Of a stretch of 64,000 nt of DNA, positions 1,901 through 63,890 are shown in pieces (position 1 is the stretch's first letter; each line of letters starts with the position of its first letter). Origin of the DNA: Nitrospinota bacterium (GTDB taxonomy: Bacteria; Nitrospinota_A; UBA7883; JACRGQ01); contig JAOUMJ010000006.1 in the NCBI GenBank assembly GCA_029881495.1, positions 1 through 64,000 on the forward strand. Reading direction: 5' to 3'. The notes under the pieces were generated by a model. That model was not told the DNA's origin and ran no database searches. It worked only from the letters and a program-made list of their open reading frames with translations. Both the position numbers and the translations under genes were made by a program.

Positions 1901-1971
1901 TAGCGCTCCTTTTTAGGATTTTTTCCATAGCATCTGCCATGCCAACAGAGGCTAGTTGGACGACATAATAT

Positions 1972-2448: not shown

Positions 2449-2660
2449 GACTGCATTACACCGAAAATATACCGAAAATCAACTGTTTTTTTTCGACTGG
2501 AAATAGTATCTAGACTCAGGCCTACTGATCTAGCCTTGTACTTATCGTGACTTTTTAAAAAGCAGAACTCTGCTGAGAAAAACAGTGAAAGGATAGCCCG
2601 GAACCAGCTGCCCGTAGCGACTTTATTTCGGGTGTTTCTGAAGTTATTTGAAGGAAAAAA

Positions 2661-2735
<75 letters not shown>

Positions 2736-2791
2736 TTAATAGGAAATAGGATTTTACTATTTTCGGGAAAAAAGTCAATCTGTTTGAATGA

Positions 2792-3304: not shown

Positions 3305-3486
3305 GCCCACAATCTTTACCATCGGGAAACCACCTTCCCCCGCAGCCAAATAGAGGATAGCCATTCAAATGCCGTAACAGGTAATAAAAGAAATTTATTT
3401 GAGGTATGCTCCCTAAAGCGTTAATCTACCCGTTTTTTATGGACAGATGGAATTTCTTGCAAGGAGAGATGTAAAAATACCCAAAT

Positions 3487-5247: not shown

Positions 5248-5329
5248 AAAAGGCGATGGAAGGGAAATCCCGCTCTTTCCAATCAGGCGATATTGAATAG
5301 GAACAAAGGAAAGATCTTCGCAGGAAAGC

Positions 5330-6031: not shown

Positions 6032-6221
6032 GATTCTCCCCAATAATCCGGTATTAAATACAACTTTTGACTACAAAACGGACTTTCATTCTATTCCCAT
6101 GAACATCAACTTTCAAGAAAGATATAAATATCGCTAGTTTTCGATTTTCACCCTCTTGAATTTTTTAAAATGAACGAAACATCCATAATGGCTGCTTGCG
6201 AAAATGCCTTGCGAGTGACGC

Positions 6222-6722
6222 CTACTTCGCCCTGTAAATGACTGTTTCCCTGTAAAGGAGTATCCCTTCACTGTTAACAAGCGAAAAATCGCTCATGAGG
6301 TAATCGTCCTCGATGAACCACTCTCCTCTTAAAGTCCTCCCCTCGGTTTCCTGAGAGAAGGTGATCAGGTTTTCGCTGATATTTTTACCGCCGGAGTACT
6401 CCGCTATCGGATTCATATCGCTGTTATAGATTATGCTCCCGGCGGAGTTCGACGATATCGCCACCTTTATATGTATATCCGGTTTGCGTTTTCCAGAAAT
6501 GAAATTGTCGATCTGGACCACTCTCACAGCTCCGTCTGAAAAAAGACCCACCCTGCTTTTAAACCGGCTCCCTTTTATCTGCGGATCTGAATTCACGTTA
6601 TACTCCACTCCGACCGCCTCGAACTTCTTCCATGTTCCCGCATGCGACGGCACTGAAAAAAGAAGTGAAAAAACCGTGACTGAAATGAAAACCGCCCGAA
6701 TCGTGGATATCTGTTTTTCCAT
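6222..6722 (-). CDS. Secreted protein of unknown function
   Basis: The start is set at ATG 6722, where MEKQISTIRAVFIS opens a clean signal peptide ending near SHA|GTW; an in-frame ATG at 6755 would add 11 poorly signal-like residues. The mature protein is about 140 residues, beta-rich and cysteine-free, with a central IDNFISGKRKPDIHIKVAI stretch and a C-terminal RGEWFIEDDYLMSDFSLVNS segment. I do not recognise the family. It may be a small periplasmic beta protein. It diverges from pepA, with 79 bases between starts, so the two promoters must lie close together. Confidence 0.6.
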   Translation of the reverse strand: MEKQISTIRAVFISVTVFSLLFSVPSHAGTWKKFEAVGVEYNVNSDPQIKGSRFKSRVGLFSDGAVRVVQIDNFISGKRKPDIHIKVAISSNSAGSIIYNSDMNPIAEYSGGKNISENLITFSQETEGRTLRGEWFIEDDYLMSDFSLVNSEGILLYRETVIYRAK

Positions 6723-6801
6723 AGCCTTTAAATATACTATACTGCACATGTTCAAGTGAAAAATTATCCGTGAATCCTTATGAATGGAGTATTGAAGTTA
6801 A

Positions 6802-8295
6802 ATGATAAAACTTAAAGTCGAGCCGATAACATCGGAAAAAGCCGTTACCGAAGCAGTGGCAATTTTGGTCTATGAAGATGATAAGGAAGGGGCATCATAC
6901 CGTGAACTCGATAAAAAACTTGGCGGGAAGATAGCCTCCCTCATAAAACAGAAGAAGTTCGTTCCGAAAAAAATGGCGGTACGCTCCATCGACAGCATGG
7001 GAAAAATAAAGCCGGACAGCGTAATACTTGTCGGCCTTGGCAAGAAAGAGGCATTCTCCGAAGAGATTCTTAGAAGGGCTTCCGCAAAGGCGGCCTCTGC
7101 GGCCGCGGGTGTCAGGGCAAAGAGTTTGACCATAGCCATCGATCCATTCATCACCACGCAGTTCAAGGCGGAGGAGCTCGCACAGGCGATGGCGGAAGGG
7201 TTGATCCTATCGACATACTCCTTTGCCAAATACGGCAAGAAGGAAGAGGACGTAGACGACGAAAGCAAACTTAATCTCGCTGTCATCGCTCAACGCAAAG
7301 ATACCGCCAAGGGAAAGAGAGGTGTCGCCGTTGCGCAAAACGTCTGCTACGGCGTATACCTCGCGCGCGATCTGCAGAACCACGCCGGAAACATCGCTAC
7401 GCCAACGTTCATCGCCAACGCCGCAAAAAAGGAGTGTGCCAAAGCTGGCGTTCGCTGCAAGGTGCTTGGCAAACGCGAGATAGAGAAGCTGAAAATGGGC
7501 TCCTTCCTCGCTGTGGCAAAAGGGAGCGCGCAGGAACCGAAGTTCCTGATTATGGAACATATGAAAGGGCCGAAAAGCGAAAAGCCTTTCGTGCTCGTAG
7601 GGAAGGGGCTTACTTTCGACAGCGGCGGAATTTCGCTCAAACCTTCCGCAAACATGGAAGATATGAAATTCGACATGAGCGGAGGAGCCGCAGTGATAGG
7701 AACGATGGTGGCGACCGGCCTTCTGAAAACCAGGAAGAACATTGTCGGTCTTGTCCCGTTAACGGAGAACATGCCGGGGGGAAGGGCCAACAAGCCGGGC
7801 GACGTCATCACCGCTTCGGACGGACAGACTATCGAAGTGCTTAACACCGACGCCGAAGGGAGGCTTATCCTCGCCGACGCTCTCGTCTACGCGAAACGCT
7901 ACAAGCCTGCGAAGGTTGTCGACTTGGCTACGCTGACTGGGGCTATCGTCATATCGCTAGGGCATCAGGCGACAGGACTTTTCGGCAACGACCAGAAACT
8001 GATCGACAAGATAATCGCCTCTGGCGAGAAGACCGGTGAGCGCTGCTGGCAGTTCCCGATGTGGGAAGAGTATGAGGAGATGATAAAGAGCAAGATCGCG
8101 AACGTGAAAAATGTCGGCGAAAGGGGCGCTGGCTCCATCACGGCGGCTGCGTTCCTGAAGAAGTTTACCGATTACCCCTGGGCTCATCTTGATATTGCCG
8201 GTACGGCGGACAATGCGAAACCGACCGCGCCATACAATACCCCCGGAGGCACAGGTATAGGCATACGCCTCTTATTGGATTTGATTAACAAGTAG
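6802..8295 (+). CDS. pepA: Leucyl aminopeptidase (M17)
   Basis: A cytosolic M17 metallopeptidase that removes N-terminal residues from peptides. Its 497 residues match the family. The C-terminal catalytic domain has GKGLTFDSGG at 267-276 (metal ligands K268 and D273) and the family signature NTDAEGRL at 348-355 (metal-binding D and E, catalytic R). The N-terminal domain (about 1-165) is the usual macro-like regulatory part. ATG at 6802 with AGT-rich upstream sequence and no strong Shine-Dalgarno; a terminator-like hairpin follows the stop. Some homologues also bind DNA in Xer recombination; nothing here tests that. Confidence 0.95.
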   Translation: MIKLKVEPITSEKAVTEAVAILVYEDDKEGASYRELDKKLGGKIASLIKQKKFVPKKMAVRSIDSMGKIKPDSVILVGLGKKEAFSEEILRRASAKAASAAAGVRAKSLTIAIDPFITTQFKAEELAQAMAEGLILSTYSFAKYGKKEEDVDDESKLNLAVIAQRKDTAKGKRGVAVAQNVCYGVYLARDLQNHAGNIATPTFIANAAKKECAKAGVRCKVLGKREIEKLKMGSFLAVAKGSAQEPKFLIMEHMKGPKSEKPFVLVGKGLTFDSGGISLKPSANMEDMKFDMSGGAAVIGTMVATGLLKTRKNIVGLVPLTENMPGGRANKPGDVITASDGQTIEVLNTDAEGRLILADALVYAKRYKPAKVVDLATLTGAIVISLGHQATGLFGNDQKLIDKIIASGEKTGERCWQFPMWEEYEEMIKSKIANVKNVGERGAGSITAAAFLKKFTDYPWAHLDIAGTADNAKPTAPYNTPGGTGIGIRLLLDLINK

Positions 8296-26880: not shown

Positions 26881-27006
26881 TTACGGCCCGTAGTTGACTA
26901 TCTTGTATGTGATGCTGACATAAAGAAAGATGACCACAAGGATGAGAACCGCGGCCAAGATGGCCATGCGGATCCGGAGTTTTTTATCGTCTCCACCTTC
27001 AGTCAT
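26881..27006 (-). CDS. 41-residue single-pass membrane peptide in the oxidase operon
   Basis: The ATG at 27004-27006 overlaps the TGA of the upstream oxidase-like gene by eight bases (ATGACTGA), and the frame ends at TAA 26881-26883. The peptide is basic at residues 8-13 (KKLRIR), hydrophobic from 14 to 31, and ends YKIVNYGP. Length, topology and place match the tiny accessory subunits (CcoS/CcoQ-type or 'cytochrome oxidase small assembly' proteins) often lost by gene callers. I infer a subunit or assembly role; no family was confirmed. Confidence 0.6.
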   Translation of the reverse strand: MTEGGDDKKLRIRMAILAAVLILVVIFLYVSITYKIVNYGP

Positions 27007-28303
27007 GTTGTGTACCGCCCTTTACTTTAACATTCTTAATGATCGTCGTCCCCGCGTAAGCTACGAACATAATTCCTCCAATAACCGCAAGAAGCGTTCC
27101 AACCCCCATCAGGGAGAGGGATGCAAGTATTACGGGATTATCCGTCCAGTCAACACCGTAAGTTTTACGGGGAGCACCGAACAGACCGGAGACGAAAAGA
27201 CCGCTAATAAAAAGGATCATTCCAGCGCCGTAAACATAAGGCTGGATGCGGGCGGCCTTTTCAAAGTATATCTTCAACCCATGCTCCTTCATTAGATTGT
27301 ATCCGAAGGCCATCAGTGCGAGGGTCAACGCCGTAACCGCCCCATGATAATGGGCGGGAACGCGTGTATCGTCGCCGAATCCGCCGTAAGCGATGAATAT
27401 CCCATACAGGTAGATGAGCATCGAGCCGAGCAGAGCGACCGAGGCAGGTTCTTTCGATTTGAATTTATACTGTTTAAAGATGTTGGCGATATGGAGGAAA
27501 AGTGGAAGCCCTAGCCCGACAGCGTACACTATCTCGGAACCTATCCTCAGCGGTCTGTCCAGCGGGTCAAAAAAGAAGAGAAGACTTAAAAGAAATACAG
27601 CCGAAATGATCAAGAGCCTGTTCGCCCAGACCAGGAGCCTCGATCCCTTTGGCTCTTCTCCAGTCGTGATCTTCAACAGGGAGTACCAGACGATAAGAAG
27701 CATTGTGCCGTTAAGGAACTGCTGAATATGCCCCGGCGTCCAGAAGACTCTTTCATAATATGTGTCAAGGTTCCCACCGCCAACTAAAAGGAATGAGACA
27801 AGGACGGATGCGACAAGTACCATTGATATATACAGAGAGGTGACAACCGCGTTGCCTATCATCTCGTCCGTTGTTATCTCCTTTAACGCGAAAGCGAATG
27901 AGGCGCTTGAATTTATCACAAATGCGAAAAAGAGGAGTCCAAGTCCAAGGAAAAATACTGGATGATCGAGAACCGGGACGTAGTTGTTAAGGCTCGCTTC
28001 GCCAAAGGCGAAGATCGCCGCCAACGCGATAAGGTCAACTCCGATTACGGCAAGCCAATAGCTGTTTTGGAACAGCGCTATTTTCAGATGGTATATCCAG
28101 AGCACGATTGCGGAGAGCATCAGCCAGCAGATAATCGCCAGGTCGACATGCCCCACGAGCGCGTACTGGAAATAGTTTTCCGGCAGAAGCTTGGAAATTG
28201 AAGGGGATCTGCTCATCCCTACAACGAAAGCGAAAAAACCTCCCATGCCGAGAGCGAAAACTGAAAGCGAGAACCACTTGCCTACATTTGTATATCTCAT
28301 CAC
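26999..28303 (-). CDS. Divergent haem-copper oxidase subunit I homologue
   Basis: 434 residues, about 12 helices. Family-like histidines are at H52 (ALVGHVDLA, helix II haem ligand), H192 (FWTPGHIQQF, helix VI CuB ligand) and H318/H320 (RVPAHYHGAV, helix X haem ligands). The adjacent HH pair of helix VII, which supplies the other two CuB ligands, is not seen: the region between 200 and 317 contains no HH, only H271. It may bind haems without a full binuclear centre. Overlaps ctaB upstream and the 41-residue gene downstream. Could be a cbb3/NorB-derived accessory subunit or a haem-handling factor. Confidence 0.7.
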   Translation of the reverse strand: MMRYTNVGKWFSLSVFALGMGGFFAFVVGMSRSPSISKLLPENYFQYALVGHVDLAIICWLMLSAIVLWIYHLKIALFQNSYWLAVIGVDLIALAAIFAFGEASLNNYVPVLDHPVFFLGLGLLFFAFVINSSASFAFALKEITTDEMIGNAVVTSLYISMVLVASVLVSFLLVGGGNLDTYYERVFWTPGHIQQFLNGTMLLIVWYSLLKITTGEEPKGSRLLVWANRLLIISAVFLLSLLFFFDPLDRPLRIGSEIVYAVGLGLPLFLHIANIFKQYKFKSKEPASVALLGSMLIYLYGIFIAYGGFGDDTRVPAHYHGAVTALTLALMAFGYNLMKEHGLKIYFEKAARIQPYVYGAGMILFISGLFVSGLFGAPRKTYGVDWTDNPVILASLSLMGVGTLLAVIGGIMFVAYAGTTIIKNVKVKGGTQHD

Positions 28304-29202
28304 ACCATATCCAGAATTAATACAATGAATAGCACGCCAAGATAGGCGATTGAAAAGAAGAAGAGAAACATCTCTTTCTCTTTTTGCGAATATAGGAATC
28401 GAACAGTGAACGCAAGGTACGCCACGCCAAGCACGATAGCCGTTGCGAGATAATATATCCCCGACATCCCGGACGTATACGGCAACACGGAAACAGGGAT
28501 CAAGGCAAGCGTGTACCAGAAGAGCCTTACCTTGGTGGCCTTTACCCCCTTTGCCACAGGGAGTATCGGAACGCCTGCTTTTGCGTATTCGTTCCTGTAC
28601 TTGAGCGCCAACGCCCAGAAATGAGGCTGTTGCCAGACCACTATTATCAGAAAGAGGATAAGCGCGTGCGTATCAAGATCCCCATGGGCGGCGGCATAAC
28701 CGATTAGCGGAGGGAGAGCGCCCCCAATGCCGCCGATGTGAGTGGCCATCGGCGTCGTCCTCTTCAGGAAAAGCGAATACATTATCACGTATGTGAATAT
28801 CGCCGCACCGGTCAACAGCGTAACCAGCGTGCCTAGATAGATTTTCGTGATAAGGAGAGAGACTATTACTAATCCCGTTCCGTACATGTAGGCGAAAGAA
28901 GGTGATACTGAACCGGACGGAAGCGACCTGGCGCTCGTCCTTTGCATGACCGAATCTATGTCGCGGTCTATGAAGTTGTTCAGCGTTGCCGCGCCGGCTG
29001 TCGCAAGACCGAGGCCGAGCGTCGTCCATAGAAAATCGTAATATCTCGGTATTCCATGTGAGCCTATATACAGCCCCGTCCATCCGGCAACGAGCGAGAG
29101 CGCCACTATGCCCGGCTTTGTAATTATCAGCAGGGCCTTGAAGAATTTTCTGTCCATCGGAAATGTCTTTTCCGCCGTCGTGCTTTTTATTGTTGAGTTC
29201 AA
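28300..29202 (-). CDS. ctaB: Protohaem IX farnesyltransferase (haem O synthase)
   Basis: 300 residues with a TTG start at 29202 overlapping the ctaA stop (TTGA); an ATG at 29157 (MDRKFFKAL) is possible. The prenyl-diphosphate site reads NNFIDRDIDSVMQRTSAR, followed by RSLPSG, as in CtaB/CyoE. It adds a farnesyl group to haem B, giving haem O. Eight membrane segments. Works with CtaA and the aa3 oxidase encoded upstream. Confidence 0.95.
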   Translation of the reverse strand: MNSTIKSTTAEKTFPMDRKFFKALLIITKPGIVALSLVAGWTGLYIGSHGIPRYYDFLWTTLGLGLATAGAATLNNFIDRDIDSVMQRTSARSLPSGSVSPSFAYMYGTGLVIVSLLITKIYLGTLVTLLTGAAIFTYVIMYSLFLKRTTPMATHIGGIGGALPPLIGYAAAHGDLDTHALILFLIIVVWQQPHFWALALKYRNEYAKAGVPILPVAKGVKATKVRLFWYTLALIPVSVLPYTSGMSGIYYLATAIVLGVAYLAFTVRFLYSQKEKEMFLFFFSIAYLGVLFIVLILDMV

Positions 29203-30098
29203 GCTTTTACCTCTTTACCGGTAACGATCAAAGGCGCTGCCAGCCAGGCGCTCCAGCCAAGAATGAAAAACGCTGTTGCTCCGTGCAGAACCAGTATGGG
29301 GAGAAACATCTCCGTAAGGACAATAAGCACGCCAAGCGTTGCCTGCGCCGATACCGCCCCGAAAGTTATCGCGTCGGTGACGGCCCTGGGAGATTTCGCA
29401 TTGAGGGAAACATAAAGCTGGTACCCCGTCAAGCCAAGAATGATGTAGGCAACAAGTCTGTGAGTGTAATGCACCAGCACTTCGGGGAGGAGGCTCGGCG
29501 GGAGTATCGCCCCCTGGCAAAGGGGCCAGTCGGGGCATGCAAGCGATGAATTTGAATACCTGACAAGGACGCCGATTATCGCCTGCGTCGCGACTATTCC
29601 GAAGAGCCATAGCTGATACTTGTCCTTGGGCGGCTCTTCCGTCCCCCTGGCAATCGGACGGTATGAAATAACGAGCAGAACGAATATGAGCGCCGCAATC
29701 ACTATGTGGCTGGAAACGACGGTTATGCGCAGCAAGGTATCGAGAAATGGTGCTTCGATCAGCACTACCGCGCCCCCCAAAAGGACAACGGTGACAATTA
29801 GCACTAGCACCGCCTTCATGAAAAATTTAATCCCGCCCGACGTCCTCTTCAATATGTAAATGGAAGAAAAGATGATCAGCGTCCCTGTCACACCCCCCAG
29901 GAGGCGGTGGCTCCACTCTATCCAGATGCCTATGTTGGCTGGAGGTATCACTGTGCCGTGACATAGCGGCCAGTCGGGACAATCGAGACCGGAGCCGGTA
30001 GTTGTTACCAGATTGCCGAGCACTAAAAGCGAGTAAGTGAACAGTATAGTCAGGCCAAGCACCACTTTCGGTGTATTTTCTTTCAAACTGGAACCCAT
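29199..30098 (-). CDS. ctaA: Haem A synthase
   Basis: Start set at ATG 30098 (MGSSLKENTPK), with AAGGGG upstream; an alternative TTG lies at 30116. About 299 residues, eight helices in two four-helix halves. Each half has a CPDWPLCHG or CPDWPLCQG loop, and the haem ligands are in IEWSHRLLGG, SSHIVIAAL, HYTHRLVAY and VLHGATAFF. It oxidises the C8 methyl of haem O. Its stop overlaps ctaB. Confidence 0.93.
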   Translation of the reverse strand: MGSSLKENTPKVVLGLTILFTYSLLVLGNLVTTTGSGLDCPDWPLCHGTVIPPANIGIWIEWSHRLLGGVTGTLIIFSSIYILKRTSGGIKFFMKAVLVLIVTVVLLGGAVVLIEAPFLDTLLRITVVSSHIVIAALIFVLLVISYRPIARGTEEPPKDKYQLWLFGIVATQAIIGVLVRYSNSSLACPDWPLCQGAILPPSLLPEVLVHYTHRLVAYIILGLTGYQLYVSLNAKSPRAVTDAITFGAVSAQATLGVLIVLTEMFLPILVLHGATAFFILGWSAWLAAPLIVTGKEVKA

Positions 30099-30231
30099 CC
30101 GGCAACCCCTTAACAATTTGTTTGCATGTAATGTAAATGCCTAAAAATAATAGGCCGAATACACCTTAAAAGCAACATTTTATGCCATTCCTGTATTACA
30201 TAACGTTGTTTATTTGAATTTTTTGAGAGCC

Positions 30232-30384
30232 GTAGGGGGAGGTTTCAAACCTGCCCATTCCGAAATTAAAACAGTGCGGGCGGGTTTAAAACCCGCTCCT
30301 ACGAAAAAAATGAATTTGAATGCGAATGCCGATACTCGCCCCTGCGAAAATGAATGCGGATACGAATACCGATACCCGCCCCTA
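30232..30384. repeat. Palindromic 'GFKPA' type repeat between coxA and ctaA
   Basis: Two inverted arms, GTAGGGGGAGGTTTCAAACC (30232-30251) and a diverged reverse complement at about 30276-30302, each contain an inner palindrome (GGTTTCAAACC, GGGTTTAAAACCC). Two direct partial units starting GAATGCG follow (from about 30319 and 30350), the last ending CCCGCCCCTAC, whose CTA is the coxA stop. Translated in other frames, such repeats give the familiar AGLKPAPT/GAGFKPA peptides that appear as false hypothetical proteins. It makes up most of the gap between coxA and ctaA. Confidence 0.7.
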
Positions 30385-31965
30385 CTTACTTTTCTTCTGG
30401 TAATTGTAAGGGGTCCAGTCCGCATCCACCACGACCGGCTCCTTGAAATTCCCCGGCCCCGGAACCCCCTTAATGTGCGTCCATTCGAGCGATCTCGACT
30501 TCCACGGATTATCCGGCGCTTCCTCCCCGGCGACAGCCGAATATATCCAATTGACGAGCGTCATCCCCATGCCGAGGGCGATAATAAAAGAACCGTATGT
30601 GGCAATATGATGCGTCGTTTCGAACGACGGGTCACCGGCGAACATCGCCCAATCGTAATATCTTCTCGGCATCCCTTTGAGCCCCAATACCATAAGCGGA
30701 AAGAAGGTGATGTTTACCCCGATGAAATTTAGCCAGAAACCGGCCTTCCCGAGCCCTTCATTCGCGTATTTTCCCGTCATCTTCGGGAACCAGAAATATA
30801 CTGCGGAGAAAATGCAGAAGGTGGCGAATAGCGCCATTACATAGTGAAAATGAGCGTACACGAACGACGTCTCCCCCACATGAAGGTCGATAGCCGTCAT
30901 TGCGAGCGGAATCCCAGTAAGACCCCCTACAAGGAAGAGGAAAAACGAAGCAGAGGCGAACATCATCGCAGTGTTGTAATAGATCTTCCCGCCGTATAAC
31001 GTCCCCCAAAGCGACAGTACCAGGAGCCCCACCGGTATGGAGATCATCAGCGTGGTAACCATCATTCCGATCCTTATCCAGTCCGGCATGCCCGAAACAT
31101 ACAGATGGTGAACCCACACCTCGCCGCTGATAAGTACCGTCCCCCATACGCCTCCGTAGACAGCTACCTTGTAGTTGAAGATCGGATTTTTTGACATGGC
31201 GGCTACCACTTCAAACAGGAGGCCGAACGCCGGGATCATTATCACGTAAACAGCCGGATGCGAATAGAACCAAAAAAGATTCTGATACAGGAGCACATCA
31301 CCCCCGGCGGCAGGATCGAAAAAATGGGTGCCTAGATATTTGTCAAAAAGCAACAGTGTCATCGCCGCGGCAAGTACGGGAACAAAAACAAGCTGAAGGA
31401 CAAATGCCGCGACAGTTGTCCAGACAAACATGTTCAGCTGGTTCCACCCCATGCCTGGCGCGCGCATGTACATGACTGTTACGAGGAAGTTCACCGCGCC
31501 GAGGAGCGATGAAAAACCGAGAAGGTGCACCGTAAAGACGTAAAAGGCTGTATTCCCTTCGGTCGTCACGCTGTACGGAGGGTAGCCGGTCCACATGACG
31601 TCGGGTGGATTCGGTATCACCAGCGAGATGAGGGCAAGCATTATGGCGGCCAGAAAAAGCCATACCGAGAAAGCATTTATCCGAGGGAAAGCGACGTCTG
31701 GCGCCCCTATCATCAGCGGTAGGAGATAGTTCGCCGCGAAGCCTGTAAGTCCGGGGATAAGAAAGGCGAGGATCATCGCTGCGCCGTGAAAATAGAGCCA
31801 TGAATTGTAGGTACCGGGGTTATCCGTGATTAGCGGGCCTACGCTGTACTGCTCGATGCGTATCAGAAGCGCCATGAAACCGGCTATGGAAAACGCCGTC
31901 AGAGAGCCTATGAGATAGAGTATCCCCACCCTTTTATGGTCGGTGGTAAAAAGCCATTCTTTCAA
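30382..31965 (-). CDS. ctaD: Cytochrome c oxidase subunit I (aa3, A2-type)
   Basis: 527 residues; TTG start at 31965 behind AAGGAGG. It carries haems a and a3 and CuB, reducing O2 and pumping protons. Ligands are H60 (YFHGA), H236 (FYSHPAVY), the pair H286-H287 (VWVHHL), and H372/H374 (YAHFHYVM). The glutamate of the GHPEVY proton channel is absent; YSHPAVY is the pattern of A2-subtype oxidases. Y240 would form the His-Tyr link. TAG stop lies inside the downstream repeat. Confidence 0.95.
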   Translation of the reverse strand: MKEWLFTTDHKRVGILYLIGSLTAFSIAGFMALLIRIEQYSVGPLITDNPGTYNSWLYFHGAAMILAFLIPGLTGFAANYLLPLMIGAPDVAFPRINAFSVWLFLAAIMLALISLVIPNPPDVMWTGYPPYSVTTEGNTAFYVFTVHLLGFSSLLGAVNFLVTVMYMRAPGMGWNQLNMFVWTTVAAFVLQLVFVPVLAAAMTLLLFDKYLGTHFFDPAAGGDVLLYQNLFWFYSHPAVYVIMIPAFGLLFEVVAAMSKNPIFNYKVAVYGGVWGTVLISGEVWVHHLYVSGMPDWIRIGMMVTTLMISIPVGLLVLSLWGTLYGGKIYYNTAMMFASASFFLFLVGGLTGIPLAMTAIDLHVGETSFVYAHFHYVMALFATFCIFSAVYFWFPKMTGKYANEGLGKAGFWLNFIGVNITFFPLMVLGLKGMPRRYYDWAMFAGDPSFETTHHIATYGSFIIALGMGMTLVNWIYSAVAGEEAPDNPWKSRSLEWTHIKGVPGPGNFKEPVVVDADWTPYNYQKKSK

Positions 31966-32026
31966 TGTTCCTCCTTGCGTATCTGAAAACGCGGTTCGTT
32001 CCGTTCCGCCGCACGATATCTAAACT

Positions 32027-32758
32027 TCATTCTTCCTCCGCTTTTTCAGAGGCTATCCAGTCAGCCAGCTCCTTTTCCGGAACGGCGATTACATCCGCGG
32101 GCATTGTCGAATGTCCTATGCCGCAGTACTCCGTGCATACGGCTATCGTCTTATCCCCCTTGTGCGGCAGGAACCAGAGATGGGTCACCCTGCCGGGCAT
32201 TACGTCTTCCTTCACCCTGTACTTCGGCAGGAAAAAACTGTGTATCACGTCATCGCTTGTCATGCGGAGGACAACCGGTTTTTCCTCCGGCACCCTCATC
32301 ACGTCGCTGGTAACACCGTCGCCGTAATCGAACTCCCACCCCCACTGATACGCCTTTACTTTTATTTCATAGGCATCTTTGGGAACCTTCCTGTATATGC
32401 TCCAGACCGTCCACCCCTTGGCGGCGAGATAGAAATCATCAGCGGCAAAAATAAATGCAGGGATAAGCGCCCATCCGAGAGCCTTTGCCGATATCAGTTT
32501 CGGCGGATTCCCCACCTCGTCGAGATCGTCCGTCCTGTATTTGTACATCCAATAGATTGCGACCACGCCGAAAAGAACCCCGATAATCGTGATGTCTATC
32601 ATCATCTCGTGCCAAAGGATATCCCACTCCGCGGCGGGATCCGGGATCGGATTCACATTGTTTGCCACATTTTCTGCCGCGGTTGCCGGCAATAAAAACT
32701 GAAACAGCAGGATCAACACCGAATGCGCCCCAGCAGTTCCTATTGTTCCCCTCTTCAT
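32027..32758 (-). CDS. ctaC: Cytochrome c oxidase subunit II (CuA)
   Basis: Start at ATG 32758, giving 243 residues; an upstream in-frame ATG would overlap coxC and give a non-family leader. The protein has a signal-like N-terminus, two membrane helices (about 55-75 and 100-118) and a periplasmic cupredoxin domain with CuA ligands in the late motif CTEYCGIGHSTMP and an upstream histidine in DDVIHSFFLP. There is no fused cytochrome c domain, so an external cytochrome c or another donor is needed. Confidence 0.93.
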   Translation of the reverse strand: MKRGTIGTAGAHSVLILLFQFLLPATAAENVANNVNPIPDPAAEWDILWHEMMIDITIIGVLFGVVAIYWMYKYRTDDLDEVGNPPKLISAKALGWALIPAFIFAADDFYLAAKGWTVWSIYRKVPKDAYEIKVKAYQWGWEFDYGDGVTSDVMRVPEEKPVVLRMTSDDVIHSFFLPKYRVKEDVMPGRVTHLWFLPHKGDKTIAVCTEYCGIGHSTMPADVIAVPEKELADWIASEKAEEE

Positions 32759-32763
32759 GTCAT

Positions 32764-33519
32764 CTACCAGAAATAAACCTGCGTTACGACAAAGAACCAG
32801 ATGATGTCTACAAAATGCCAGTAGATCGCGGTGCACTGAACAAACGTCCTGTTAACTGTCCCCCCTAGCGCGGGGATAAGGACTACGATGAATGAAAAGA
32901 CGCCGATAAGGACATGAGAGGCGTGAAACCCTGTTATCGAATAAAATGCCGTGCTGTAAATGTTCGTGCTCATTCCGAATCCGATTTGAACAAGGTGGTA
33001 ATACTCGTAAATCGACATGCTGAAAAAAGTAAGGCCTAGAAGAATGGTTATGCCGAGGTTGCTCTTGAAACCGGCCATATCACCTTCATGAAGCTTGCCT
33101 TCAGCAAGATGTATCGTGAAACTGGAAGTAACCAGAACTATCGTCATAACCACAGGGAGGAGAAGGCTAATATGCGGAGTCCCCTCCGGTGGCCATGAAT
33201 ATGCGGAAAGACGCGCAAGCCAGTAGCTGGCAAACATGCTTAGAAAAATAAACGCTTCGGAAACAATGAATATCGCGATGCCGGATACCGAGTATCCGAA
33301 CTGCATATGCTTCTGCCTCAAGCCTTCGCTTGTCCATTTCGCAATACCGGCCAACAGCAATGGAACCCCTATGCCGCAGAAAATCGCTGTTAAAAGCAGA
33401 TTCTCGTATTGGAAGTTCGCGGTAAATGCCAGCGGTAAAACAAAAAAGATGCCGAATACTATTGCGGCCGGGGACCAGCTCCACTCCCAGTGATGTTCGG
33501 TTGTGATTTCCGAATTCAT
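32764..33519 (-). CDS. ctaE: Cytochrome c oxidase subunit III
   Basis: Start at ATG 33519 with GAGGGAAC just before it; a start 16 codons earlier (33567) has no ribosome site. 251 residues, seven helices, with the hallmark FHASHVLIGV and YWHFVDIIWFFV near the C-terminus. It stabilises subunit I. It is the first gene of the run, so the order is III-II-I-ctaA-ctaB, unlike the common II-I-III. Confidence 0.93.
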   Translation of the reverse strand: MNSEITTEHHWEWSWSPAAIVFGIFFVLPLAFTANFQYENLLLTAIFCGIGVPLLLAGIAKWTSEGLRQKHMQFGYSVSGIAIFIVSEAFIFLSMFASYWLARLSAYSWPPEGTPHISLLLPVVMTIVLVTSSFTIHLAEGKLHEGDMAGFKSNLGITILLGLTFFSMSIYEYYHLVQIGFGMSTNIYSTAFYSITGFHASHVLIGVFSFIVVLIPALGGTVNRTFVQCTAIYWHFVDIIWFFVVTQVYFW

Positions 33520-33710
33520 TGTTCCCTCGCCACAAAACAGAAAATCCCCGGGAATTGCCTGATGCAAATCTTGTAACAGGTCACTTACTCAGCCCTTTGT
33601 ATAGACGCAGGGTTGTACGGAAGGAAACCTGTTTTCGACAAATGATAAATAATCATTTCGGTTATATTATCAGAAAATGGGACCAAAACCTACCAGTTAT
33701 AACAATCTTG

Positions 33711-54497: not shown

Positions 54498-54620
54498 CAG
54501 CCAAAAACATTCTTTAAGAATAATGGCGAAGAACGGCGGCGCACCGGCAACCGAACCATATCCAGCCCCGTTTTTTTTAAATGCATTCAATAGTTGGGTT
54601 TAAGCCTGAGAAATAATAGA

Positions 54621-55322
54621 ATGTCACAGAGGGACAAAATGAAATATAAGCACGAAAAAGACATCATCTCCCGGATGTACAAGGAATTTCCGGCTACAGT
54701 ATCGGAAATCGACATCAAGATGCTTCGAAGCATTCAAGACGAGTTCACCGCCGGATTCAAACTCCTCGCAAATCAGGGCCCTTTTGTCACAACCTTCGGC
54801 TCGGCGCGAATAAAACCTGGAGATCCTGTTTACGCTCTCGGCGTGAAACTGGGGGAAGCTCTCGCAAAGGAAGGCTACGCGGTTCTTACCGGCGGCGGCC
54901 CCGGATGTATGGAGGCGGTGAACAAGGGGGCAAAGGAAGCAAACGGGAAATCAATGGGAATCAACATATCCATCCCTATCGAGCAGAATTCGAATCCATA
55001 CGCCATCCCCTCTATTACCATGAACCATTTCTTTGTGCGGAAAGTCCTCCTGCTCAAATTCTCCACGGCATACATATTCCTCCCCGGAGGTTACGGCACT
55101 CTCGACGAGCTCTTTGAAACCATCACCCTGGTACAGAATGGAAAGATCAAGAAACTGCCGATAATTCTTATCGATACCGCATTCTGGCATGGCCTCATGG
55201 AATGGATAAACGAACGCCTGATAACAGACGGGCTGATAGGGCCCAATGATACAAAATACTTCAAGATCGTAGACACTGTTGAGGAAGCTATAGAGGTTAT
55301 AAGAACTACATTAACAGCATGA
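54621..55322 (+). CDS. LOG/TIGR00730 family Rossmann-fold protein
   Basis: Start set at ATG 54621 (MSQRDKMKYKHEKD, 233 residues); an upstream TTG at 54594 is in frame. It has GGGPGCMEAVNKGAKEANGKS and PGGYGTLDELFETITLVQ, the two signatures of the LOG family (often annotated 'lysine decarboxylase', though many are cytokinin-activating or nucleotide 5'-monophosphate nucleosidases). It overlaps the next gene by four bases. Confidence 0.88.
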   Translation: MSQRDKMKYKHEKDIISRMYKEFPATVSEIDIKMLRSIQDEFTAGFKLLANQGPFVTTFGSARIKPGDPVYALGVKLGEALAKEGYAVLTGGGPGCMEAVNKGAKEANGKSMGINISIPIEQNSNPYAIPSITMNHFFVRKVLLLKFSTAYIFLPGGYGTLDELFETITLVQNGKIKKLPIILIDTAFWHGLMEWINERLITDGLIGPNDTKYFKIVDTVEEAIEVIRTTLTA

Positions 55323-55528
55323 AATACAACATGAAAGACGGCTCCACAATATGCGGGAACTGCGGCAAACCTATTAAACCAAACAGCAGCGTCGCTGTCA
55401 TGGAAGGGGCCAAGGACCCGGTTATCTGCCACGCCGAATATGACTGCTCCCCCGCCGGCAACTGCCGGTACGGATTCTGGGGGAACGGAAAACTTGAATC
55501 GGTCTTCGGAGAGATTGAACAGTGTTGA
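55319..55528 (+). CDS. 69-residue zinc-ribbon-like protein
   Basis: The ATG overlaps the LOG gene stop (ATGA), and its own stop at 55526-55528 overlaps the kinase GTG start at 55522, so it sits inside a tight translational unit. Cysteines CGNCGKP near residue 12, then CHAEYDC and GNC, suggest one zinc site. It is too regular and too well placed to be chance. Family not recognised; perhaps an adaptor for the kinase or LOG protein. Confidence 0.65.
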   Translation: MKYNMKDGSTICGNCGKPIKPNSSVAVMEGAKDPVICHAEYDCSPAGNCRYGFWGNGKLESVFGEIEQC

Positions 55529-56700
55529 AGCAACTTGAAAATCTCCTTGCAGCCAATCGCGAAACTCTTGTGCGGGAGTGGGCAAGACTTATGCAGGAAA
55601 GTTCCGCGTCATACGGAAGCCGACCGGTCAACGAACTTCTCGAAACATGCGGTCTCGCTTTCGATGCCTACTCATCGCACATCATGGAGCATGGAAGCGG
55701 AAAGCTGGACGACTTTATCGACTACATCGTTATCAAAAGGGTAACGGCGAAATTCTCGATAAGCGAGGTGCAGCATGCATTCAGCCTTTTCAGGACCATT
55801 ACGACACCGATAATATTATCGGAACTTGACGCAAAGCAGAGCCTCGCGGCGATAGAGGCAATCGACAGATCGGTAAACCACGCGATATTCTCATTCAGCG
55901 AAAAATACCAGAAGACGATCGACAACGAGATGCTGGAGATAAACCGCACGCTAACGCAAACAATGCAAAACCTGAAAAAGGAGAAGGATACGGCAACCAG
56001 AGCGAACCTTCTAAAGGATCAGTTCCTGGCAAACATTTCGCACGAACTCCTCACCCCTCTTACGAGCATAATCGGCTACAGCAAGATGATGATCGGCAAG
56101 ATGGATATCAACTCGATTTCACGTGACAAATTCAAGGTCATATACGACCAGGGGAAAATACTGCAACACCACATAAACACGCTCATTCTTTTTTCCCAGA
56201 TAAACTCGGGGCAGGCAAAGAGGAACAACGACTCGCTCGACCTGAAAGGATTGCTGGAAAAATGCATCAACGAGGCGCTTGGATTCCTTCCGCTTAATAA
56301 CTGTAAAGTGAATCTAGTCTGCCAGGGAACTCCGCACCTCATTACAGCCGACGGGGAAAAGCTCCGGTTCGCCATATATGAGCTCATATTCAACGCTATA
56401 AAATTCTCTCATCACGATTCGTGCGTGGACGTAATATGCAGTTATGAGCCCGACATTGTACGGATATCCGTAAAGGATATAGGAATAGGGATAAATACCG
56501 ATAATCTTGAAACCATTTTCTCCCCCTTTTTTCAGGTAGACGGATCGCTGACTCGCTGTTACGGAGGGAGCGGCCTTGGCCTTGCCATGATCCGGAAGGT
56601 CGCGGAGCTGCATCAAGGCTCGATTCATGTTGAAAGCACTCCCGGCAACGGGAGCCGGTTCACGCTGGAGATCCCTTTCGTTCCGCCCCGGCATCACTGA
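55522..56700 (+). CDS. RsbRD-type sensor histidine kinase
   Basis: 392 residues, GTG start. Residues 1-135 form an RsbRD/STAS-kinase style N-terminal domain (LVREWARLMQES, FDAYSSHIMEHG), followed by a coiled coil at 130-165. The H box is FLANISHELLTPLTSIIGYS with H174; the usual arginine after HEL is leucine. N box LIFNAIKFSHHDS, G1 DIGIGI and G2 GGSGLGLAM are present. No membrane segment, so it is cytoplasmic. No response regulator gene lies near, so the target is unknown. Confidence 0.88.
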   Translation: MLKQLENLLAANRETLVREWARLMQESSASYGSRPVNELLETCGLAFDAYSSHIMEHGSGKLDDFIDYIVIKRVTAKFSISEVQHAFSLFRTITTPIILSELDAKQSLAAIEAIDRSVNHAIFSFSEKYQKTIDNEMLEINRTLTQTMQNLKKEKDTATRANLLKDQFLANISHELLTPLTSIIGYSKMMIGKMDINSISRDKFKVIYDQGKILQHHINTLILFSQINSGQAKRNNDSLDLKGLLEKCINEALGFLPLNNCKVNLVCQGTPHLITADGEKLRFAIYELIFNAIKFSHHDSCVDVICSYEPDIVRISVKDIGIGINTDNLETIFSPFFQVDGSLTRCYGGSGLGLAMIRKVAELHQGSIHVESTPGNGSRFTLEIPFVPPRHH

Positions 56701-59069: not shown

Positions 59070-59100
59070 CAGCCCTGCCAGCGCGGGGCTGAACCTTTTT
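59070..59100 (+). terminator. Rho-independent terminator after the FeS-flavoprotein gene
   Basis: CAGCCC and GGGCTG (59086-59091) form a 6-bp stem around a 10-base loop, followed by AACC and five T bases. It lies 17 bases after the TAG at 59051-59053, between the two convergent operons; the minus-strand gene ends at 59128. Confidence 0.55.
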
Positions 59101-59127: not shown

Positions 59128-60384
59128 TCAGAAGCGGTAGCCGATGAGGGCGAAGACGGATGACGACCTCCACTCGTTATCGGCCTGAGCGATAAAGACT
59201 GAGTCTACGTCAAGATATTTCTCTTCCGATATCTCATAGCTGACTGAGCCGTAAAAACTTTTCCCTTTGTACCAGTTCAGCGAGCCTCCGTACATCGTCT
59301 GCCTTAGCTTGTTCGAGGCCTTGTCCTGGCTATTTTCCATGACCGTAGCGTTCACCTCGGCGCTTATGTTGGTCGATATGTCCGCGCCGAGAGAGGTGCG
59401 GTATGTGTTCGACTGCGAGGTGAAGTAGTTAATATCGTTATATGAAAAATCGAAAAAGAGATATCTGAACAGCCCGCTCTTCCTTAGACCGAGGGTATAC
59501 ATCTCCGCCGACTTGTTATCGCTCTCCCTTGTGCGGTGGTCGTACCTTGCATAAAGGTTCGTCCCCCTGCTGATATTCAGTGTTCCGTTCACTCTGTATG
59601 ATTTCTGCAGTTCGCGATTTATATCGTAATCCATCGATTCGTACAGCTGTACCGCCCTGTACTGGTAGTATGTAAATCCGAGTCTTGCCACTCGGCCTAT
59701 CCTGTAGCCGACCGTTGCAAGAAGATGCGTCAGATCGAAACCGCCATCCAGCACGTTGTGATCCCCTCTTCCCGATGCGTATACGTTCAGTTTGTCGTTA
59801 ATGCGCCAGTCATAGTTTGTGAACATGAAAGAGGAATCTTCTTTACCATTATAAATGGAAGAAGCGTATCCCCCCGAGATACCGTACTTTTTCTCCCTCT
59901 TGAAACCAAATAGGCCATACGTCACGAACTCCGACGACAGGCGATCAATGTGCGGGTCGGGCTGTGTGCCGCCGAACATGCCGAAGCCTGATAGCTCCCC
60001 CGTATAATGTTTCAGCGACACTCCGTCGATACCCGCGCCGGGAACATCCGCCACATAATGCCTCCCCAAAACAAGGTCTGTGTTCCAGAACCCTTTCTGA
60101 ATTTCAAGGTTTGCATCCCTGATCCTTGTTTCGGGGATGTTCTCGTTCAGATCGCTTTCGCCCGTTCCCCTCGTTCTCGCGTCAAGGTTGATGAACTTGT
60201 TCTCCCCCATGAACTCAGACGCAGTGAGCTTCACCCGCGTATCCCAATAGTTGTACTTGTAGGCGGACGAATCGTCTTTCAGCTCGAAGAACGAGGCGGA
60301 GAGGTTTCCGGTGACTTTCGCATGGGCAGGCCAAGCCTGTACCAGAGAGAGGAGAATGGCCGCAATAACAAATATTTTTTTCAT
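59128..60384 (-). CDS. Outer-membrane beta-barrel protein of the cytochrome locus
   Basis: The start is ATG 60384, which overlaps the cytochrome TGA (TGATG), so it is translated by coupling; a GTG/ATG reading to 60396 adds four residues. 418 residues with a signal peptide (MKKIFVIAAILLSLVQAWPAHA). The mature part alternates beta-strands rich in Tyr, Arg and Phe, ending in the aromatic residue of GYRF, the outer-membrane insertion signal. It resembles the porins that host cytochromes in extracellular electron transfer; the partner is the 42-haem protein. Confidence 0.8.
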   Translation of the reverse strand: MKKIFVIAAILLSLVQAWPAHAKVTGNLSASFFELKDDSSAYKYNYWDTRVKLTASEFMGENKFINLDARTRGTGESDLNENIPETRIRDANLEIQKGFWNTDLVLGRHYVADVPGAGIDGVSLKHYTGELSGFGMFGGTQPDPHIDRLSSEFVTYGLFGFKREKKYGISGGYASSIYNGKEDSSFMFTNYDWRINDKLNVYASGRGDHNVLDGGFDLTHLLATVGYRIGRVARLGFTYYQYRAVQLYESMDYDINRELQKSYRVNGTLNISRGTNLYARYDHRTRESDNKSAEMYTLGLRKSGLFRYLFFDFSYNDINYFTSQSNTYRTSLGADISTNISAEVNATVMENSQDKASNKLRQTMYGGSLNWYKGKSFYGSVSYEISEEKYLDVDSVFIAQADNEWRSSSVFALIGYRF

Positions 60385-63300
60385 CAGTCGTCGCAAACTC
60401 CACCGTGAAGGTCTCGCCCGTCGTCAAAATTCCTGTCCGTAACCTTGTGGCAGTCGGCGCACCAGGCGGGATCGCACCGCGGCTGGCCATTGTGTTCATG
60501 GAGGAAGTTCGTATCTTTCCTGGTCATCGCTGGATGGTTATGGCAGTCTTCGCACTGCTGTTCTAGTGTTGCGCCGGGGAACTTCAATTCGCTAGAACTT
60601 ATCAAATGGCACCGGTCACATTGGTCTTCCAATGGCACGTGGCGGCCATTGAATGTCATAGTGGTATGGCCGTAAGACGCCGGTAGCCAGCCAGATGTCT
60701 TGTGGCAAACACCGCATTCAAGATTTGTCGGGTCTGCATGCCCCAACGTGGTTGTGCTGTTGTATTCGTCCATATGGCAATCCTTGCAGATCCTTTCAAA
60801 CGTTGCCCCGGTGAACTTGGCGAGAAGATTGACGGACGCGGCCTGATGGCATTTCAGACAATCAGACTTCGCCGTCAAATGTTTTCCGGAGAATGTCATT
60901 TGAGCATGTACGTAGCCGATGGCAGTCCATGTCATCGCAGTCGTGGGATGGCACGACGCACATGTGGTGATCGCATCCGTGGCGGCATGCCCAACCTTTG
61001 AGTTATCCGACGCCGCCTCGTTATATTCGGTCAAATGGCATATGTTGCAGTCCGTAGCAAGCTCCGCGGTCAGATATATGTCGAGCAGATCGGACGATTT
61101 TGGTTTGTGACACTTATCACATGTGTCTTTTATCGGTTTGTGCGGTCCCAAAAATGTCATTGTGTTGTGACCGTAAGACGCCGGTTTCCATTGACCAAGC
61201 GTAAGGTGACACTTCATACATTGAACCGTTTCGTCCACAACGGAATGGGCGACCAGAGCAATATCCGTGTTTGCCGCAGTGAACTCGGGCTGGTGGCAAT
61301 ACTCGCATTCGGTCTCCATCGTTGCGCCTGTGAATTTGGCGAGGAGCACTAATGAGGTTTTTTCATGGCATTTTACACAGTCCTGCTCAATCGGCTTGTG
61401 ACCATTTGAGAAGGTCATCGCGATATGCCTATAGCTTATCTGTTCCCAAGTCATGGAACCTATCCCGTGACACTGACTGCAGTCTGTCGCCGCGTTTGCG
61501 ACCTGATGGCCAATAGTCGAATTATCCGATTTTGCCGCATTGTAATCCTCTGTGTGGCAGAGGTTGCAATCGGTCGGGGCCTCAGCGCCGGGCCAAAGCA
61601 CAGCCCAATTCGCCGTGTTATGACACTTTTCGCACTCTTTTTTTAGAATCCTGTGGGCACCGTTAAACGACCAGATCTCATGCGCGTGATCAGTTGCCGG
61701 AACAAACGAATAAACCTTGTGACAATCCTGACAATCGGTGCGCGACAGCGAGTGGAACATAGTCAGCTTCGGATCGAGGAACTCCTTGGCGTGACACTGC
61801 AGGCAGTCAACGGGGACATCCCTGTAAATACGGTTCTGATGGCAGTCACTGCACTTGGCGATCCTGTGCCTCCCTTCAAGACGGAAGCCGGTATTGTTAT
61901 GCGAGAAGAGTTCCGGCAGCCAGCTTTTTGCGGAATGGCAATCACCGCAATCGGTGCCGAACTGCCTGAAGTGCGGATCGGTATGACAGTACGTGCAATC
62001 GGAACCGGTGAGGCCGTCATATCTCCCTTTGACCTTGTGACACTCGGCACAACGGGCCTGTGCATGTGAGTATTTAAGCGAGAATCCGGTCATGTCGTGG
62101 AAATAGCTCTCCGGCTGCCAGTTGTAACTGTTATGACACTCTTCGCATTTTTGGCCAAACTCCCCTTTATGCTTGTCGTCCTTTTTATGACAGGCATAAC
62201 ATGTGGTCTCAAGGGGTTTCCAGACCGTCTGCTCGTTTTTCTTCATATGGCATTTTTCGCACTTGGTCTCCGCGTGTTTCCCTATAAGTGAGTATTTGCT
62301 GTCCCTGTTATGCTGGAACTTAAGCTCCTTCCACCCCTTTGCGGTATGGCAATCGTCGCACTTTTTATCCTTGAACTGGTCACCATGCGTGAAGGCCCCC
62401 TTCTCTTTCGTGTCGTGGCAGCCTTTGTTGTTGCACTCCTTTGTGTCTATCGGTTTGTAGTGAGGCTTTGTGGTTGCAGGATCGATAAGGTGGCATTTTT
62501 CGCATTTAACCTCGGCGTGCTTCCCTTCCAGCTTGTACCCCTTGTATTTGGGATTGTCATGCTTGAATGTCGGCTCCTTCCACGCCTTGGTGGTGTGACA
62601 ATCATCGCACCTCTGCCCCTTGAACTGCTCGCCGTGCGTAAGACCGCCGCGCTCCTTGGTATCGTGGCATTCTGCCGAATTACACGTCTTTGTGTCGAAC
62701 GGTTTAAATCGGGCCTGTTTTGTTGTCGGATCCGGCCTGTGGCATTTTTCGCATTTCAGTTCCGCATGCTTCCCATCCAGTTTGTACCCTTTGTACTTGG
62801 GATCCTCATGCTTGAACAGCGTCTCTTTCCACGCCTTGACCGTGTGACAGTTTTCGCACTTCTGCCCCTTGAACTGCTCGCCGTGGGTAAGGCCGCCGCG
62901 CTCCCTGGTGTCATGGCAATTTGGGGTGTTACATGTGCTTGTATCAAACGGTTTAAAGAGAACCTCCTTCGTGCCGGGGTCGGCCCTGTGGCATTTTTCA
63001 CATTTAACCTCGGCGTGCTTCCCTTCCAGCTTGTACCCTTTGTACTTTGAGTCCTCATGCTTGAATTCCGACGGTTTCCAGCCGTTGACGGTATGACACT
63101 CTTCGCACTTTCTCCCCTTGAACTGCTCGCCATGGGTGAAGAACCCGCGTTCCTTCGTGTCGTGACAGCCGGGAGCTGTGCAGGTATCGTACTTCTCGAC
63201 GGTGAATATCCCCTTGTCCTTCTGCGGATGACAAGTCTCGCATTTTGCCTTCAGGTGTTTGCCACGTAATGGATATTTTGTCTTGTCGTGATTAAAGAGC

Positions 63301-63890
63301 GTTTCCTTCCAGTCCTTTTCGGTATGGCAAGTCTCGCACTCCTTGCCGAGTTTGCCTTTATGTTTATCGTCTTTTTCATGGCAGGCAAAACAGGTTGTTT
63401 GAAGGCCAAGAAAACTTCTTACCCCTTTTTTTGTTTTGGCTGTATGGCATTTCTCACAATCAACCTTTTCGTGCTTGAAGAGAAGCTTGTAGCCGGTGGC
63501 GTTATGGTCGAATTTTTTCTGATCCCACTCTATAAGGGTAAATGCCGTCCCCTTATGGTCGGGATGGCACTCTATACACTTTTTATCGCTGACGGTCGTA
63601 TGATATCCCTTGCGCGCCTTGAGCCGCTCGTTGATATCCTTATGACAGTCCAAGCACCCTTCATTCGGTATCCCCCCCCTTAGAGCATGACATTTTGTGC
63701 AGTTTGTCAGCCCCTCCACCTCATCATGAAGGTAAGAGAGGTCGCCCGGGGAGATCAATGTACCGAGTGATTCGGCATTCGCGAGCGATGGGAAAGCGAA
63801 AATCGCCAGCAACAAGGAAATTATCACCATGAATTTCGGCAAGGCAGGTATTAAAGCCTTTGATTCAAAGTCTTTCTTTATTATGCTCAA
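60384..63890 (-). CDS. Giant multihaem cytochrome c with 42 haem-binding motifs
   Basis: 1168 residues, TTG start at 63890 behind AGAGGA. Signal peptide about residues 19-39 (ending LANA). I count 42 haem sites: 38 CX2CH and 4 CX4CH. The CX4CH sites begin at residues 237, 320, 403 and 486, exactly 83 apart, each within an 83-residue unit with two CX2CH sites. C-terminal modules of about 75-80 residues repeat three CX2CH sites. No soluble redox enzyme domain is seen. It is probably periplasmic or surface-exposed and carries electrons over a long distance. Its TGA overlaps the barrel start. Confidence 0.93.
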   Translation of the reverse strand: MSIIKKDFESKALIPALPKFMVIISLLLAIFAFPSLANAESLGTLISPGDLSYLHDEVEGLTNCTKCHALRGGIPNEGCLDCHKDINERLKARKGYHTTVSDKKCIECHPDHKGTAFTLIEWDQKKFDHNATGYKLLFKHEKVDCEKCHTAKTKKGVRSFLGLQTTCFACHEKDDKHKGKLGKECETCHTEKDWKETLFNHDKTKYPLRGKHLKAKCETCHPQKDKGIFTVEKYDTCTAPGCHDTKERGFFTHGEQFKGRKCEECHTVNGWKPSEFKHEDSKYKGYKLEGKHAEVKCEKCHRADPGTKEVLFKPFDTSTCNTPNCHDTRERGGLTHGEQFKGQKCENCHTVKAWKETLFKHEDPKYKGYKLDGKHAELKCEKCHRPDPTTKQARFKPFDTKTCNSAECHDTKERGGLTHGEQFKGQRCDDCHTTKAWKEPTFKHDNPKYKGYKLEGKHAEVKCEKCHLIDPATTKPHYKPIDTKECNNKGCHDTKEKGAFTHGDQFKDKKCDDCHTAKGWKELKFQHNRDSKYSLIGKHAETKCEKCHMKKNEQTVWKPLETTCYACHKKDDKHKGEFGQKCEECHNSYNWQPESYFHDMTGFSLKYSHAQARCAECHKVKGRYDGLTGSDCTYCHTDPHFRQFGTDCGDCHSAKSWLPELFSHNNTGFRLEGRHRIAKCSDCHQNRIYRDVPVDCLQCHAKEFLDPKLTMFHSLSRTDCQDCHKVYSFVPATDHAHEIWSFNGAHRILKKECEKCHNTANWAVLWPGAEAPTDCNLCHTEDYNAAKSDNSTIGHQVANAATDCSQCHGIGSMTWEQISYRHIAMTFSNGHKPIEQDCVKCHEKTSLVLLAKFTGATMETECEYCHQPEFTAANTDIALVAHSVVDETVQCMKCHLTLGQWKPASYGHNTMTFLGPHKPIKDTCDKCHKPKSSDLLDIYLTAELATDCNICHLTEYNEAASDNSKVGHAATDAITTCASCHPTTAMTWTAIGYVHAQMTFSGKHLTAKSDCLKCHQAASVNLLAKFTGATFERICKDCHMDEYNSTTTLGHADPTNLECGVCHKTSGWLPASYGHTTMTFNGRHVPLEDQCDRCHLISSSELKFPGATLEQQCEDCHNHPAMTRKDTNFLHEHNGQPRCDPAWCADCHKVTDRNFDDGRDLHGGVCDD

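Follow-up and report, generated by a model that had tools for sequence, protein, structure and literature searches.

A 42-haem cytochrome encoded beside an outer-membrane barrel in a Nitrospinota bacterium: a candidate trans-envelope electron conduit related to PCC3

RESULTS

Two convergent gene pairs at the locus

The DNA analyzed here, referred to as the window, is the whole stretch of 64,000 nucleotides from contig JAOUMJ010000006.1 of a Nitrospinota bacterium (GenBank assembly GCA_029881495.1). It carries two convergent gene pairs separated by a gap of 74 nt (Table 1). The first is a cassette composed of a giant multihaem cytochrome and an outer-membrane beta-barrel; the second encodes an inner-membrane protein (IMP) and an oxidoreductase with Fe-S and FAD domains (the FAD protein). 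An ATG of the barrel frame overlaps the stop codon of the cytochrome as TGATG, and the barrel probably starts there rather than at the TTG. No second giant cytochrome gene lies beside the cassette within the window. The IMP/FAD pair is preceded by genes for a Lysine_decarbox/TIGR00730 (LOG-type) protein and a histidine kinase with an RsbRD N-terminal domain (54594-56700, plus strand). The IMP motifs are those described for porin-cytochrome systems, among them the putative porin-cytochrome c complex 3, PCC3 (He et al. 2017, PMC5566968).

Table 1. Features of the cytochrome-barrel locus (positions in the window)
Feature	Position	Strand	Remarks
Inner-membrane protein (IMP), 303 aa	56789..57700	+	WX3HX13H + SGXXG + WX3HX13H; di-haem-b signature of PCC3/PCC4 IMPs (PMC5566968)
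Membrane-anchored oxidoreductase, 446 aa	57713..59053	+	N-terminal hydrophobic helix, two Fer4 motifs, FAD/NAD(P) domain
Terminator-like hairpin	59070..59091	+	9 pairs and a T-run, between the convergent gene pairs
Outer-membrane beta-barrel partner, 422 aa from TTG	59128..60396	-	22 predicted strands, no plug, C-terminal Phe
Giant multihaem c-type cytochrome, 1168 aa	60384..63890	-	42 haem motifs, 14 tri-haem modules; TTG start, GAGG upstream
Sec-type signal peptide, residues 1-39	63774..63890	-	Read from the sequence; predicted cleavage between ...SLANA and ES; no lipobox Cys
Lys-rich part, modules 1-7, residues 40-586	62133..63773	-	Resembles the first ("periplasmic") cytochrome of two-gene relatives
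Modules 8-9, residues 587-725	61716..62132	-	Transitional, highly conserved, Lys content falls; candidate barrel-embedded stretch
Lys-poor, Ser/Thr/Ala-richer part, modules 10-14, residues 726-1168	60387..61715	-	Resembles the second ("extracellular") cytochrome of two-gene relatives

Haem count and integrity of the cytochrome gene

A program count over the single open frame of 1168 residues returned 38 CX2CH motifs, 4 CX4CH motifs, and no CX3CH motif. This total of 42 is the one given in an earlier note made from the sequence, and the measured density of 27.8 residues per haem agrees with its figure of one haem per about 28 residues. Two of the 86 cysteines lie outside haem motifs, and 2,000 shuffles of the same residues gave a mean of 0.5 CX2CH motifs with a maximum of 4.

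Because the sequence is repetitive and the assembly comprises 72 contigs, we considered whether the haem count had been inflated by an assembly or duplication artefact; a frameshift or duplication was also the worry voiced in the earlier note. The longest DNA repeats inside the gene span 300 nt at a spacing of 249 nt and are 70-73% identical, so collapse or expansion of reads is of no concern. Moreover, uninterrupted homologues are encoded in independent genomes of the phylum; they are 774-1147 aa long and have 30-43 motifs. Repeat identity of at most 73% and intact homologues elsewhere together rule out an artefact, to which we assign a negligible chance. In genome G002 (L078, 1785-4500), the giant gene reads as two overlapping frames that have 14 and 20 haems, owing to a frameshift or to a genuine split.

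A chain of fourteen tri-haem modules

The 42 haems are arranged three by three, with none left over, in 14 consecutive c7-like modules of roughly 66-105 aa; each module follows the pattern [aromatic]xH ... H ... CX2CH ... C(X2/X4)CH ... H ... CX2CH. The earlier note had recognized three-haem repeats in the C-terminal part; these are present, but confinement of the modularity to that end is rejected, as the modules span the whole protein. The CX4CH sites are located in the Lys-rich modules 3-6. Modules 4-6 are mutually 63-75% identical, compared with ∼19-55% for other module pairs. Outside the motifs, 11 modules have exactly three histidines, two have four, and the last has six, which is enough for a predicted bis-His ligation of every haem; with at least three such residues in each module, His-Met ligation would be unnecessary.

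In Pfam, the cytochrome matched the Cytochrome_C7 (3.7e-37) and c3 families. A phmmer search of the single cytochrome and barrel sequences against the PDB gave nothing useful, and matches for the cytochrome required a profile of its family: the best was the dodecahaem "nanowire" GSU1996 (3ov0), and MtrA (6r2q_A) was also retrieved. The match to MtrA was weak, and so was that to DmsE-family decahaems, the DmsE model scoring 69.7 of 192.2 bits. AlphaFold2 on 14 sequences gave a model with a pLDDT of 39 and a pTM of 0.25, which was discarded; as such, the extended shape considered below rests on homology to GSU1996.

The earlier note had suggested a search for homologues; those in the phylum range from 30 haems to 43 or more. 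Of 13 homologues, 11 have a haem number divisible by three (30, 33, 36, or 39), which suggests that length changes by whole modules; the two exceptions are G021, with 32 haems, and G006, whose 43 haems are cut by a contig end. Additional cytochromes with 8-12 haems are encoded just upstream of the giant gene in G013, G007, G016, and G017 (L070, 13498-14481; L071, 7745-8692; L076, 6911-8798; L079, 4430-5467).

A compact barrel that travels with the cytochrome

AlphaFold2 modeling of the barrel from 17 sequences produced a 22-strand barrel without a plug (pLDDT, 85.4), and the C-terminal Phe is invariant in the family. The protein had no match in Pfam, NCBIfam, or PHROGs. A Foldseek search with the model retrieved only generic barrels at low TM-scores, ushers first, and no barrel family was assigned from matches of so generic a kind. 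Within the phylum, the cytochrome and the barrel occur in exactly the same 20 of 24 genomes, and the two genes adjoin in the loci inspected.

Related barrels were also found in other lineages. Those of Marinimicrobia (L012) and Bacteroidia (L013) are homologous to the window barrel by hhalign (97.6% and 89.2%, respectively), whereas profile comparison detected no homology for the barrel beside a giant cytochrome pair of Pseudomonadota (L011). The comparison with barrels of PCC3-like sets covered these three. The L011 contig has a 68-motif cytochrome frame of 1837 aa (1712-7225) that follows a 26-motif one (3-1835) and precedes a 739-aa putative barrel; the locus is possibly a proteobacterial PCC3.

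Two parts that appear to match two separate cytochromes

Near residue 590 of the cytochrome, the Lys content drops from ∼15-22% to 4-8%, and a similar drop is seen at the corresponding place in homologues. To evaluate a possible fusion, residues 35-586 and 726-1168 were each scored against cytochrome 1 and cytochrome 2 of the two-gene loci L011-L014, with 100 shuffles in which each C and H retained its position. The N-terminal part preferred cytochrome 1 in all four loci (summed bit difference, -479, versus -13 with a standard deviation of 26 for the shuffles), and the C-terminal part preferred cytochrome 2 in all four (+96, versus +30 with a standard deviation of 22). In L012 and L013 the latter preference was stronger than in any of the 100 shuffles, which was not the case for L011 and L014. 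On these scores, the predicted assignment of the N-terminal part to cytochrome 1 is strong and that of the C-terminal part to cytochrome 2 is moderate.

On one contig each of Marinimicrobia (L012) and Bacteroidia (L013), the genes are ordered IMP, FAD protein, cytochrome 1, cytochrome 2, and barrel, L012 with an additional 10-haem gene. Three genomes from other phyla (G032, G048, and G056) have the order IMP, cytochromes, barrel, and the sole barrel match in each adjoins the cytochromes. The order of these two-gene relatives equals that of the PCC3 of Sideroxydans ES-1, numbered IMP-cyt_p-cyt_e-porin (PMC12016527), in a system whose extracellular cytochromes are described as rich in Thr, Ser, Ala, and Gly (PMC5566968). 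Given the preferences of the two parts, the Lys drop, this compositional description, and the gene order, fusion is the best reading: the window protein appears to join a PCC3 "periplasmic" to a PCC3 "extracellular" cytochrome. Behind the conserved modules 8-9, the Lys-poor tail is short in most relatives (30-36 haems); several extra Lys-poor modules are present in the window protein, G001, and G006.

Inner-membrane neighbors and host metabolism

The IMP signature is exact in the window protein and in all 17 homologues examined. The IMP and FAD genes occur together in 14 genomes of the class and are linked to the cassette in G000 (the genome of the window), G001, G002, G004, G006, and G007; in many relatives the two genes lie apart from the cassette, or IMP matches were weak or absent (G011, G012, G019, and G021). 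Both ferredoxin motifs of the FAD protein (residues ∼65-112) are without the second Cys, which is Ser in the first and His in the second (C-X5-C-X3-CP). This absence is conserved in its homologues except in Marinimicrobia L012, where the Cys is present in the first motif. The altered motifs may reflect unusual Fe-S ligation or 3Fe-4S clusters.

Further genes bear on the metabolism of the host. Contig C3 of G000 (L148, 549-12357) has a Dsr cluster with DsrEFH, DsrAB, a DsrL-like NAD(P)-binding protein, DsrC, and probable DsrMKJOP. The combination of DsrEFH with DsrAB, a DsrL-like protein, and DsrC is of the oxidative type. The window itself encodes subunits I, II, and III of an aa3-type cytochrome c oxidase together with COX15-CtaA and a UbiA-family protein (26999-33567, minus strand), as well as a further weakly COX1-like membrane protein (27095-28279). 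Contig C5 of G000 (L098, 9358-15521) carries a separate Mtr-type locus that encodes a 10-haem MtrA/DmsE-like protein, an MtrB/PioB barrel (PF11854), and an 8-haem MtrC-like protein of 925 aa, followed by a peptidyl-prolyl isomerase. Other large multihaem proteins of G000 have 13, 11, and 18 haems (C20, L099), 18 (C9, L102), 12 (C25, L100), and 9 (C11, L101).

DISCUSSION

A probable conduit and how far it may reach

In the reading that we consider probable, the cytochrome serves as the wire of an electron conduit across the envelope, and this conduit is a variant of PCC3, itself a predicted porin-cytochrome system. The description of the protein as a very dense haem wire, made in the earlier note, is supported by its 27.8 residues per haem, the spare histidines, the tandem c7-like modules, and the matches to GSU1996 and MtrA; as such a wire, the cytochrome would conduct electrons. 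Most of the interpretation turns on the partner barrel, the neighboring redox pair at the inner membrane, and the relation to PCC3, none of which the earlier note had mentioned. The sequence itself shows the haem count, the 14 modules, a sufficient number of ligands, the barrel partner, the IMP signature, and conserved linkage; where each part lies, the threading of the barrel, the electron path, and an external partner are what we infer. Electrons would be exchanged between an NAD(P)H or ferredoxin pool and the FAD/Fe-S protein, and from there with the two b haems of the IMP across the inner membrane. The b haems would in turn exchange electrons with the Lys-rich modules, which would cross the periplasm to modules 8-9, held in or near the 22-strand barrel. 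The Lys-poor C-terminal modules would then lie at or beyond the cell surface, in contact with an external donor or acceptor. The FAD/Fe-S oxidoreductase suggests an entry or exit point of electrons in metabolism. In a sulfur-oxidizing, oxygen-respiring host, the conduit could take electrons in; the NAD(P)H-linked flavoprotein would rather suggest that electrons are sent out.

According to a reference cited in PMC10138318, GSU1996 is 12 nm long with four modules. If the window cytochrome were extended in the same way, its 14 modules could reach up to ∼40 nm, and by the same extrapolation modules 1-9 could measure ∼27 nm, similar to the periplasm. More tentatively, and at less than even chances, a single polypeptide of 42 haems (∼40 nm if extended) may run from the inner-membrane haem-b protein through the periplasm and the 22-strand barrel to the outside. 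It would have arisen when the two cytochromes of a PCC3-like ancestor fused, and its length would have been adjusted as whole tri-haem modules were gained or lost. We know of no direct precedent for folded haem modules passing through a 22-strand barrel. If true, one molecule would form an unbroken wire across an envelope of two membranes, and electrons would not have to hop from protein to protein anywhere outside the inner membrane. The one-gene and two-gene versions would also permit clear experiments on how cells span the periplasm.

Within the conduit explanation, the wire might instead end inside the barrel as in MtoAB/PioAB, with the non-plugging modules periplasmic and nothing protruding. 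MtrA is a secondary PDB match, and most relatives have only a short Lys-poor tail past modules 8-9, as this version would have it; we still think it rather unlikely, since the extra Lys-poor modules of the window protein, G001, and G006 exceed what is needed to plug a membrane-thick barrel.

Two further explanations give the barrel a different role. The cytochrome could be a periplasmic protein for electron storage, like the "nanowire" cytochromes GSU1996 and GSU2210, and the barrel would then serve another purpose. It shares the tri-haem-domain architecture of proteins described as periplasmic capacitors (PMC10138318), its best PDB match is one of them, and it has no lipobox or surface anchor. 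However, the coupling of its gene to that for an outer-membrane barrel across 20 genomes and the IMP and FAD neighbors speak against storage, as does the division into Lys-rich and Lys-poor parts, which corresponds to the two cytochromes of PCC3-like sets; storage seems improbable to us. Still harder to credit is a secreted or cell-surface nanowire that extends tens of nanometers outside the cell and uses the barrel only as exporter or anchor. The extrapolated length of up to ∼40 nm and a signal peptide without a lipobox would suit it, but the Lys-rich modules resemble the IMP-adjacent cytochrome of two-gene relatives, which is predicted to be periplasmic in PCC3 (PMC5566968). A conduit of the PCC3 type remains our preferred reading. 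Against it count the C-terminal preference that stays within the shuffles in two of four loci, the relatives in which the IMP/FAD pair is unlinked or weakly matched, the L011 barrel for which no homology was detected, and the behavior of PCC3 on Fe(II) in Sideroxydans ES-1 described below. That these parts are also linked in Marinimicrobia, Bacteroidia, and other lineages suggests that PCC3-like conduits are widespread beyond the Proteobacteria in which they were named; our literature search found no paper joining PCC3 with these phyla, which does not in itself prove that there is none.

Comparison with known systems

The role of PCC3 in extracellular electron transfer is itself a prediction (PMC12442390), and growth of Sideroxydans ES-1 on Fe(II) did not induce the system (PMC8788666). 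PCC3 shares with the window locus an outer-membrane barrel gene next to a giant cytochrome, cytochromes with 22-39 aa per haem and a predicted periplasmic site (PMC5566968), and an IMP of ∼300 aa with two WX3HX13H motifs and SGXXG. PCC3 has a separate extracellular giant cytochrome and porins of up to 42 predicted segments, whereas the window encodes one chain, a small 22-strand barrel, and an extra Fe-S/FAD oxidoreductase paired with the IMP. Moreover, the PCC3 systems described are proteobacterial (PMC5566968; Gallionellaceae survey, PMC10734462), in contrast to the phylum studied here.

The earlier note had held the protein to be larger than the characterized outer-surface cytochromes. It is larger, but precedents exist in GSU2210 of Geobacter, with 27 haems (PMC10138318), and in PCC3 cytochromes, which reach 85 (PMC5566968); with 68 motifs also found in one frame at L011, the haem number cannot be called a record. 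The Geobacter proteins GSU1996 and GSU0592 (12 haems each) and GSU2210 likewise string c7-type tri-haem domains together in a single linear polypeptide. GSU1996 has four modules and one His-Met haem per domain, whereas the window protein has 14 modules, three spare histidines per module as predicted ligands, and a barrel partner.

MtrAB, MtoAB, and PioAB also combine an outer-membrane barrel with a multihaem periplasmic cytochrome, although there the cytochrome has 10 haems rather than 42 and the MtrB/PioB barrel is larger. PF11854 (MtrB/PioB) had no match in the 422-aa barrel, the sole match in the genome being the genuine MtrB of the separate locus (C5:62707); this result, the 42 haems, and the partial DmsE score led us to reject membership in MtrAB. 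PCC_1 of Candidatus Manganitrophaceae, reported as restricted to that family, likewise pairs a predicted porin with a multihaem cytochrome in organisms labeled Nitrospirota (PMC9040806); its cytochromes are described as dodecahaem. Relative to these known systems, the one found here stands out for its single chain, its compact barrel, the FAD protein linked to it, and its spread across lineages.
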